Assembly: GCA_025201375.1 (NCBI GenBank)
Contig: JAIWZP010000057.1
Span: 117,340-181,339 of the forward strand
Direction: 5' to 3'
DNA: 64,000 nt
Source: Gongronella butleri
Taxonomy: Eukaryota > Mucoromycota > Mucoromycetes > Mucorales > Cunninghamellaceae
The notes beneath the pieces are model-generated. The model was not told the DNA's origin and did no database searches. It saw nothing but the letters and a program-made list of their open reading frames with translations. The position numbers and the translations under genes are program-made. Below are positions 1 through 28,262 of this stretch, piece by piece (position 1 is the stretch's first letter; the number at the start of each line of letters is the position of its first letter).

Positions 1-6035
<6,035 letters not shown>

Positions 6036-24951: not shown

Positions 24952-25218
24952 ATCGTTCCTTTTTTTTGTCGTCTTGTCACAAATTATTGCATGATGCTGT
25001 GTGCTGCTATGATGCTGTATGCTATTTCATCACTCTCTCCTGGCCACGTGGCCACCACTGATGATGTGATGATGCTGCGGACGCCGCGACGAGCAACGAC
25101 GCAAAGAAACGAATCATATCTTCACTACTGTATGATATGTAGTAGTATCATACGGTCAAGCAGCACGATTTTCATGATATCATGCATACTACGCACTGTT
25201 GTACGTACAGTACATGTA

Positions 25219-26236
25219 CAGTGCCCTACCAAAAAAAACTTCACCCCCTGGCTATTTTTTAGCAATGCTGAAGTCAAGTTAATCGCTTTAATCTCTTCTG
25301 TATTGATCAGAAATGACCCCAATGACATGAAATTTTGTAGGAACAATGGTTTAAAAGTATAAAAACGAGTCTAAAATTATGAAGTAGCTATATCAAGCGG
25401 ATTTTGAAATAGACCAAAAAAGGGGTACCTGACGCGTCACGCGACGCGACGCGTACTCATGCGTATACTGTACAATGGTCTGTGGGGATGAATTGACATT
25501 ATAAACACCATCTCCAAATTTTTCTGCAATGAATGTGATAGTATCCGATTGTATTCTGTAAACCAATTTCATGGTACATGAATCACATCAGAACTGTGAC
25601 CGATATTGTAAATCCGCACTGTGACGCGTCACGCGTCAGACGCGTCTGGAATAGCGATTTTCATCTCTGGAACGTAATTTTAACCATTTTGTTGGATTGA
25701 AACCACTGTGATTATTTAATTTGAAGAGCTAGAATAGCCTGTTATCGGTTGGTTGTGATTTTATTAAAAACTTAGATCATGTTAGGGAAATCTCAGCTTA
25801 TGACTCGTCTGACGCATCACAGTGCGGATTTACAATATCGGTCACAGTTCTGATGTGATTCATGTACCATGAAATTGGTTTACAGAATACAATCGGATAC
25901 TATCACATACATTCATTGCAGAAAAATTTGGAGATGGTGTTTATAATGTCAATTCATCCCCACAGACCATTGTACAGTATACGCATGAGTACGCGTCGCG
26001 TCGCGTGACGCGTCAGGTACCCCTTTTTTGGTCTATTTCAAAATCCGCTTGATATAGCTACTTCATAATTTTAGACTCGTTTTTATACTTTTAAAAAACC
26101 ATTGTTCCTACAAAATTTCATGTCATTGGGGTCATTTCTGATCAATACAGAAGAGATTAAAGCGATTAACTTGACTTCAGCATTGCTAAAAAATATAAAA
26201 TAGCCAGGGGGTGAAGTTTTTTTTGGTAGGGCACTG
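25219..26236. mobile_element. Fold-back Tc1/mariner-like MITE with TA target duplication
   Basis: A 1,018-bp element whose two ends are long inverted copies: left arm about 25219-25643, right arm about 25805-26236, joined by a 160-bp loop. Termini are CAGTGCCCTACCAAAAAA on both ends, flanked on each side by TA (25217-25218 and 26237-26238), the target duplication typical of Tc1/mariner. The arms differ only by a few small indels (for example 9 bp in the TATTTT region, 3-4 bp in an A run, 4 bp in GAATGTATGTG, one GTGACGCGT unit) and scattered bases. No transposase reading frame is present, so it is non-autonomous. The near identity of the arms suggests recent origin or gene conversion. Confidence 0.9.
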
Positions 26237-26619
26237 TACTGTACAGTACTGTATCATATGATATGATTGATACAGTATACCGGTATATTTGGATTTCACA
26301 ACATCACTAATAATACAGTACGATTCTATGAATTCACAAAAAAATGTTTGATCCGCGCGATTTTTTTACGTAATTTTTATCATACTGTACCGTACAGTAC
26401 ACAGTACAGTACAACAGTACCTACAGTAATACAGTAATGGACAGAATCCGATGCAGCATGCTGTTACGTATCATACTGTATTTCGGTGCATATCATACAA
26501 CTGTTGCACTTTACTGTACAACAGCGCGCTATCATACAACATACAGTAAGATACGCCGCAGCACTAAAATGCACACGTTTGCCTTTGGAAAACGACAATA
26601 ATTTAATAATAATAATGCG

Positions 26620-27940
26620 TCTGTTTTCCGGACTTTGGCCACCTGTTGTGCCTCCAGAAAATTTTTTACAGCCTACCTGCTGCCCGCCGATGAAAATCGT
26701 GTAACGGCACGAGCTACAGTCCAGAGCTCGCGACGTGTCCGCCCGATTTTTTTTGAGCCTGCAAATTCCAAACCCCTTCAATTTGCCCTCTTTTTCATTT
26801 ATATTGCCATGTGCTTGGCCGATTCCACTCGAAAACAGTCGCATCGGTTTCAACGCAAAATTTGCAACAAAAAAGCTTAAACCCGCGCCCAAAGCGCTAC
26901 GACCATGGCCACTTTGAAAAATTCAGGGGTCACACATTTTAACTGCCAAATTTGAGAAATTTCGAACTCCGAATGATCAATGCATCCCAAACAGGTATCT
27001 CCGACAATTTGCTATTGGCAGACAAAATGGCAGATCGCCCCAACGTAAGACAAAAAAGCCCAAAGAGTGACGCATGAACGGCGATCGACAGAGAAAATTG
27101 CCTACTCTGGTCAAGATTTTTTTTTACAAAAATTTAAGGTTTGACACTTCCAAATCAAGGTGCGTAAATTGCATAGATTTTATTTTTTATTTTGCACACT
27201 TTTTTTATGCACTGATGATGAGCGCACTGATGAGCGGCGGGCTGCAGCAGGCAGGCAGCCTGGTGAAGAAATGTAGCGTGCGTAGGCCGATACTGTACAG
27301 TACGTACTGTACAGTACTGTACAGTACTGTACAAATACAGTAGTTAAACCCAAGCTGGTTGGCGCGCTGCAAGTCATTCCATTAGATGCCTAGCTCTCCT
27401 TTTTGTTAGTACTGTAAATCTGGAATAAAAATCCGGGGTCGACTTGATCGTTGTGGAGCACAACATCGCGATTAAAGATTTTTTTGTTGAAAATGTGGAA
27501 CATGATTTTCTGTTTTGTTCTGCTTTTCTCTGCCAGTTTTTTGATCATCCATTGCCACCATTGGTGAAACTGGTGGTCTCATTATTAGAAAGAACATCTT
27601 CATTCATCAATAGTTCAATACTGTATGATAGCTGCATTTGAATGACACGTTATGATATCATATCATAAAAGAAGAACCGCAGGTTCGTCCTACCCATTGT
27701 CGTCGAGATATCATAGAAAATCGAGTTTGAACTTTGAAAATTAATCCAATGTTTGATCGGCTCTTGCAAGCGTACCGTACAAAGTTCGTCGACCATCATC
27801 GGGCGAACAAACAATCTGAAAATGACCCCCAATGCCCAATCATCGTGTGCCTCGTTCAAGCGATGCCACCAGTAGTTTCACCGCGATATACGAAATATTT
27901 CATGAGCATGGGTTGAATTTGTGAAATAACAGCATTTTTG
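26620..27940 (+). repeat. Dispersed repeat family A, copy 2
   Basis: Three shared blocks. First, 26630-26780 (TTGTGCCTCCAGAA..., GCAAATTCCAAACCCC) matches 7070-7195. Second, 26845-27025 (AGCGCTACGACCA, TTGAAAAATTCAGGGGTCAC, CCGAATGATCAATGCATCCC) matches 63815-63995. Third, 27720-27825 matches 7375-7475. Simple TACTGTACAG repeats interrupt it at 27290-27345. No coding potential recognised. Confidence 0.75.
27290..27345. repeat. TACTGTACAG palindromic microsatellite
   Basis: Tandem TACTGTACAG-like units; each unit is self-complementary, so the tract can form hairpins on either strand. Confidence 0.85.
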
Positions 27941-28262
27941 CTTGGTCCAACTACTGTACAATACAGTATAGAACTTGTAGTATTGTATCATCATATCATA
28001 CTGTAAGAGATGCAGCATGCCATCCCATACAGTATGATACTGTAGCGGTTGATGGGAAGATGGGTTGGTTGATGGCAAATATGATAAAATGTTATTGTAA
28101 ATTTGGACTTTTTTTTATGTAATTCTTTGCATCATTAATATCAGCAAGGCAAATTTGACTACTGTATCATATCATAATTTGTGCGCCGCTTTTACGCAAA
28201 AGGAAATGACGCGCGACGCGATTTAATTATGATTTGATGATGTTCGTCGTTTATTTATAAAT

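Follow-up and report, generated by a model that had tools for sequence, protein, structure and literature searches.

Concerted arm evolution and apparent stacked excision footprints in a large Tc1-type fold-back family of Gongronella butleri

MITEs are usually short, below about 800 bp, and in the palindromes of mammalian Y chromosomes arm-to-arm gene conversion keeps the arms nearly identical. The non-autonomous elements Tetris (PMC4079207) and Tm1 (PMC3169594) are described, in the portions of the papers available, as having a middle segment flanked by very long inverted repeats, and the Tm1 repeats average 93.15% identity within an element. The available portions of two further papers report that Sleeping Beauty nicks three nucleotides inside, giving three-nucleotide overhangs and footprints identical to them (PMC7827188), and that a Stowaway element in Australopyrum is inserted at TA beside an older footprint (PMC1925063). 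Among the titles and abstract openings listed for openly licensed papers on stacked footprints, on the homogenisation of fold-back arms and on Tc1 elements of Mucorales, none describes stacked footprint chains, or such chains as a preferred target.

The locus considered here lies on contig C64 of a genome of 33.0 Mb in 110 contigs, within the 64-kb stretch of DNA that was analysed (the window). Taken singly, its element is nothing out of the ordinary, being a large fold-back of the Tc1 type, and fold-backs, footprints and arm conversion are each already known. The family as a whole shows arms that evolve in concert with intermediates still present, and an apparent genome-wide system of scars.

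The window element, its family and transposase partners

The element measures 1018 bp (25219-26236 of the window) and is organised as follows.

25217..25218, no strand: left TA target-site duplication, read from the sequence
25219..25236, + strand: left terminus CAGTGCCCTACCAAAAAA, with 37 exact copies in the genome and 0 in the backwards control
25219..25631, + strand: left arm, 413 nt, from the arm alignment
25632..25809, no strand: loop, 178 nt, alignable and consistently oriented across 44 copies
25810..26236, - strand: right arm, 427 nt, from the arm alignment
26219..26236, - strand: right terminus, identical to the left one (CAGTGCCCTACCAAAAAA reverse-complemented), read from the sequence
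26237..26238, no strand: right TA target-site duplication, read from the sequence

The identical 18-nt ends with TA on either side, and arms of about 425 bp that differ by a few small indels, had been described in the earlier note and are borne out, whereas the loop is longer than the 160 bp estimated there. In a global alignment the arms show 0 substitutions over 416 aligned positions, and in a local one 1 mismatch and 3 gaps in 427 columns; the only differences within the outer 390 nt are indels of 7, 3 and 4 nt. A block of 187 nt is 100% complementary which, together with the further copies in the genome, excludes chance as the origin of the palindrome. The element strand is predicted to fold into a single long hairpin (-522.6 kcal/mol, DNA parameters). 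No reading frame stays open for more than 64 codons, so the element encodes no transposase. Its tandem repeats are very short ones only, and Rfam and tRNA searches of the 64-kb window returned no match. The open reading frames of the window include, by eye, RPB1 with heptad repeats, and one for a Rictor-like protein; among the relatives of the latter that carry an organism name, the best comes from Phycomyces (69% over 77%).

A genome-wide search for further copies, proposed earlier, proved productive: with the element as query, 153 matching pieces were found at E<=0.001, separately matching arms being counted too, and next to the 37 exact CAGTGCCCTACCAAAAAA ends there are 131 exact CAGTGCCCGGACAAAAAAA ends (backwards control 0). 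One of the end searches required TA and the other did not, and the ends from the latter at delimited elements also have TA. Altogether 48 fold-backs were delimited, 44 initially and 4 later, with TA on both sides in 44/44 of the former and in all of the latter; one end of the non-delimited L048 reads AA instead. Two pairs of copies at different places are identical, L043_246 and L056 over 1004 bp and L021_3852 and L045 over 1005 bp. The copies are non-coding (open frames were checked in the window copy), uniform in length and share ends with an autonomous element, as MITEs do, and differ from MITEs in size, the 48 spanning 995-1050 bp with a median of 1006. End types within the family include CCCTACC, CCCGGAC, GGTGGCC and CCCTCC, among others, yet the first 12 nt are the same at both ends in 43 of the 48 copies, against 0.143 for two ends drawn at random from the pool. 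The window element belongs to a large family of non-autonomous fold-backs of the Tc1 type.

The counts cover elements with clear ends. Outside them stand L030, both of L048 and one of L024 near 4440-5320, whose ends are not clear, L023, which is split by a nested transposon, and the copies that were not delimited (C55, C85, C67:500905, C23:135805, C75, C30, C39:258984, C70, C2:209355, others, and most copies with CCCGGAC ends). L053-L056 enter the end-sharing, the target and insertion, and the length and end counts, and the arm-divergence analysis comprises 44 elements.

Transposase genes are found between ends of the CCCGGAC type, the more numerous of the two end types counted. Among the first 100 matches listed, at least eight pairs of such ends stand 1333-1334 bp apart, each enclosing a stop-free transposase match, and the partner copies of L033 and L053 are letter-identical over 1334 bp. 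The encoded protein has 341 aa, the domains DDE_3 and HTH_Tnp_Tc3_2 and a D-D-34-E triad, and its only solved relative at E<=0.001 is Sleeping Beauty SB100X (5cr4; E 2.9e-29). The fold-back L054 matches the 1334-bp partner over 28 nt at 100% with one end and over 41 nt at 95% with the other, and at L053 a fold-back and a partner have a single TA in common. Tc1-type membership, with a DD34E transposase in an element with matching ends, thus holds for the CCCGGAC-end subfamily, and the Tc1/mariner assignment made in the earlier note is upheld by these transposons and by the TA flanks of the 48 copies. The transposase source with the same ends that had been sought there exists for the CCCGGAC ends, whereas for the CCCTACC ends of the window element the sole partner found is a transposon with a broken frame (L024:6442-7790) and CAGTACCCTACC (CCCTACC) ends. 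In the genome search the next best match is 56% identical, and the window arms resemble about 160-180 bp at one end of this transposon with 65-67% identity. It is only a candidate partner for the CCCTACC subfamily, whose present-day mobility is putative.

Several further arrangements were also observed. Clustered at L024:3341-7790 are two fold-backs that could be delimited, another that is unclear, and the CCCTACC-end transposon with the broken frame, which has one TA in common with the adjoining fold-back. The fold-back at L023:3727-6351 is split by a 1.6-kb transposon of the Tc1 type nested within it, whose ends are CCGTGGCTCTC and whose open reading frame encodes 339 aa (DD34E); at nine other places there are open frames of equal length (346 codons), of the same DDE_3 class as in this insert. 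Another type of large fold-back, with arms of ~1001 nt that are 98% complementary, a 548-nt middle and ends unlike CAGT, is present at L029:6688-9223.

Concerted evolution of the arms

The arms were compared among 44 elements over 385 nt. The loops of these elements, with a median identity of 0.77, orient consistently in 946/946 pairs, which implies descent from one palindrome and hence that the palindrome is old. Without copying between arms, two elements are expected to resemble each other more in their left arms than a single element resembles itself between left and right, and the opposite was found in 921/946 element pairs: the median arm divergence is 0.016 within elements vs 0.193 between them, and the left-left and left-right distances between elements are alike (mean difference 0.0004). 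Ongoing arm-to-arm copying, one of the two explanations offered earlier for the similarity of the arms, is therefore supported, whereas the other, recent formation, is not. In a tree of the 385-nt arms both arms of an element are sisters in 27/44 cases (15/44 in the first tree, built from 430-nt arms that may extend into the loop), and in 13 of the 17 non-sister elements the arms join within clades of 3-10 arms from close relatives. In the other four, L026_4486, L027, L028_4427 and L029_5019, the arms are 8.7-10% apart and do not join below clades of 23-26 arms. Copying is therefore not universal, and homogenisation does not follow at once in every element.

Sequences of foreign origin are present in single arms. 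A 118-nt patch in the left arm of L021 (232-350) is 99% identical to L040 and occurs also in L045, in one arm only, and positions 235-300 of the left arm of L032 are 98.5% identical to L018, which belongs to the subfamily of the window element; a similar one-arm patch is carried by L031. The left end of L039 (0-100) is 100% identical to L050 and of the CCCTACC type, and its right end is CCCGGAC. For the patches and ends of L021, L045, L031, L032 and L039 we infer the direction of transfer.

Short words of the form TACWGTA provide further markers. They stand at mirrored places of both arms in 5 arm pairs from 4 elements, always with equal W, and 3 of the 5 places are private (in the window element, L044 and L047), being absent from all other aligned elements. 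One mirrored place is common to L024_5407 and L047, with W differing between them. L044 has the word in both arms, and the near-identical L042 has plain TA in both; four further words occur in one arm only of the 385-nt arms. The pair in the window element is as follows.

25466..25472, + strand: left-arm TACTGTA, a private footprint word, with plain TA there in 40/43 other aligned copies
25973..25979, - strand: mirror-position copy of the TACTGTA word in the right arm, from the arm alignment

Taken together, comparison of the copies indicates that the arms evolve in concert, with intermediates caught. The idea of hairpin mismatch repair was addressed through a bias of arm differences towards larger indels, and the indel shares within and between elements were without clear difference. 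As a separate observation, private 6-nt insertions have produced TACCGGTA words in L039:301-1310 and L024:3341-4360, possibly a longer type of footprint, and the one in L039 sits at the place of the private footprint of the window element.

Similar arms without any copying would also result if each subfamily had arisen anew as a perfect palindrome and spread fast, the arms being alike through youth. Some copies are indeed identical and clearly young, but the consistent alignment and orientation of the loops in all 946 pairs points to one palindromic ancestor, the between-element divergence of 0.193 is far above the 0.016 within elements, and the one-arm patches and the words private to both arms need exchange after the elements had split. 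This origin is very improbable, and private footprints present in both arms already contradict it. Still less credit can be given to an artefact of assembly or polishing in which one arm was overwritten with the consensus of its partner, as ambiguous mapping in inverted repeats could do in principle, since many copies retain arm differences of 2-10%, four arms retain one-arm footprint words, and end types vary between elements yet match within them. A different cause would be selection, if transcription of the palindrome gave a long hairpin RNA for a silencing pathway and the arm match were maintained on that account. RNA interference is known in Mucorales and counts in favour, as does the predicted fold into one long stem; however, the extreme ends match too, which binding by the transposase alone would explain, and selection alone does not place an identical private footprint word in the two arms, which makes this possibility unlikely, if less so than the preceding two.

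Pentamer chains and target sites

The flanks of the window element contain words and chains of the same kind, and neither these nor the mirrored words of the arms figure in the earlier note.

25206..25212, no strand: left-flank heptamer TACAGTA, interpreted as a TA-CAG-TA footprint, from heptamer enrichment in the window
26237..26263, no strand: right-flank chain TACTG-TACAG-TACTG-TATCA-TATGA-TA, interpreted as stacked footprints, from the sequence
27291..27331, no strand: two neighbouring TACTG/TACAG chains, from the sequence

The word immediately left of the window copy is TACATGTA and not TACWGTA. Within the window TACWGTA occurs 48 times, compared to a mean of 1.4 and a maximum of 4 in 20 Markov runs, and 0/48 fall inside ten ORF intervals hand-picked as likely coding (12.3 expected). 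Genome-wide, adjacent chain units have the same W in 733 cases and a different one in 880 (backwards controls 9, 2 and 1), and in 262 kb (the window and L017-L036) the figures are 52 and 51; the excess of alternation over identity is small, and the order of W is not exactly random. In mixed chains 134 CTG, 113 CAG, 12 and 11 CCG/CGG, and 49 and 48 TCA/TGA units were counted, the minor CCG/CGG units fitting fold-backs with CCG ends. Inside the fold-backs, the alignment of 44 elements contains 26 private insertions of 5 nt, of which 11 create a TA-CWG/CCG-TA heptamer, where both arms of one element may each count, against a mean of 0.22 and a maximum of 3 in 500 runs with permuted letters. Heptamers of this kind are the expected leftover of three-nucleotide staggered excision of CAG-ended elements, and the private TA-CWG-TA insertions at TA sites of the fold-backs agree with a Tc1/mariner footprint of 2-4 bp between two TAs. 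The TACAG/TACTG chains of the genome thus look like piled-up excision footprints.

A second class of words, TATCATA/TATGATA, was noted 42 times in the window and in none of the ORF intervals checked, chained with TACWG units at 26252-26263, 27651-27667 and 28160-28176, for example, an arrangement that might have been produced by a different transposon ending in TCA or TGA. Inverted-end searches around L009-L016 and L035 gave no TA-flanked pair for such a transposon. Adjacent units of this class are the same in 12 cases and different in 5, and several four-unit runs are uniform, so that slippage is possible for the TCA/TGA class.

TACWGTA directly adjoins 47/48 fold-backs, on both sides in 30, compared to 69/1951 other TAs of the window, counted without those between 25100 and 26400. 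A single TA is common to a fold-back and a neighbouring element at L017, L024, L029, L043, L052 and L053. Among young, identical or nearly identical copies the word is found on both sides of L021_3852, L055 and L056 and on one side of L043_246, L045 and L053. The TACWG chain may be a preferred target of the fold-backs, a view towards which these flanks lean. Neighbours that repeatedly jump in and out beside a resident copy would be the alternative, and it is only somewhat less favoured given these young copies.

The chains could instead be an ordinary microsatellite or a host motif that is merely favoured as target. Runs of identical units at C18:321731-321777 and C19:365482-365508 fit slippage, and the target preference is real whatever the origin of the chains. 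Against this, W is near random and slightly alternating, the reverse of what slippage produces, the 11 private insertions inside the fold-backs are new TA-NNN-TA heptamers, and the minority CCG/CGG units match CCG-ended elements, all of which leaves this account with a small chance of being correct.

Proposed mechanism and relation to known systems

The explanation that we favour as a whole, with a probability of about 0.8, is a Tc1-type (DD34E) non-autonomous fold-back whose stacked footprints are reused as targets and whose arms are copied onto each other. The sequences show transposase genes with ends of the same kind elsewhere in the genome, TA on both sides of the delimited copies, and some identical copies at different places. 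The transposase would cut the palindromes three nucleotides inside each end and reinsert them at a TA, and the break would be joined as TA-CWG-TA, the CAG and CTG overhangs mismatching at the middle base only. Repeated events at the same spots could produce (TACWG)n chains, which the family would then reuse as targets. Within a copy, the sequence of one arm would be repeatedly copied onto the other, and candidate routes are repair of a snapped-back hairpin, arm-to-arm gene conversion and fold-back synthesis refilling an excision gap. Foreign patches and new end types would enter one arm first and then spread to the other, so the two ends would stay matched.

A broader proposition, to which we give slightly less than even odds, is that the chains are self-made and improving landing sites as well as a tally of jumps, and that the palindrome acts as a two-copy memory which allows ends and transposase to be switched. 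Each excision would then add one TACWG unit, the enlarged chain would be a better target, and (TACWG)n tracts would keep a running tally of jumps. A jump or hairpin repair would rewrite one arm from the other, and new ends tried in one arm and later fixed in both would let the family switch transposases; an end swap in one arm followed by its spread would explain how a gene-less element changes its transposase. Should the chains be preferred targets, the choice of a site and the formation of scars would each strengthen the other. Stacked transposon scars also suggest a second source of microsatellite-like DNA besides polymerase slippage, and the dozens of copies with private markers offer a natural system for following the homogenisation of palindrome arms.

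The family resembles Sleeping Beauty and other Tc1-type DD34E elements in its DD34E transposase with an HTH and in its TA target, and differs from them in that a palindrome of 1 kb without genes is a common mobile form and that what are presumed to be scars form stacked chains throughout the genome. With Tetris (PMC4079207) and Tm1 (PMC3169594), as these are described in the portions available, it has in common the non-autonomous state and the very long inverted repeats flanking a middle segment. Those elements have 8-10-bp duplications, sub-repeats in the arms and a link to Mutator, whereas here the duplication is TA, the ends are of the Tc1 type and sub-repeats are very short only; the 8-10-bp duplication that marks classical Foldback (FB/Mutator) elements is likewise absent from the family, and their tandem arm sub-repeats are absent from the window copy. 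Stowaway MITEs, in the corresponding portions of the paper (PMC1925063), are also Tc1/mariner-type, non-autonomous and found at TA, yet they are short and leave varied footprints at one locus, whereas chains of fixed pentamers occur genome-wide here. 

Finally, the Y-chromosome palindromes are large, gene-bearing and chromosomal, whereas the palindromes described here form a mobile 1-kb family.
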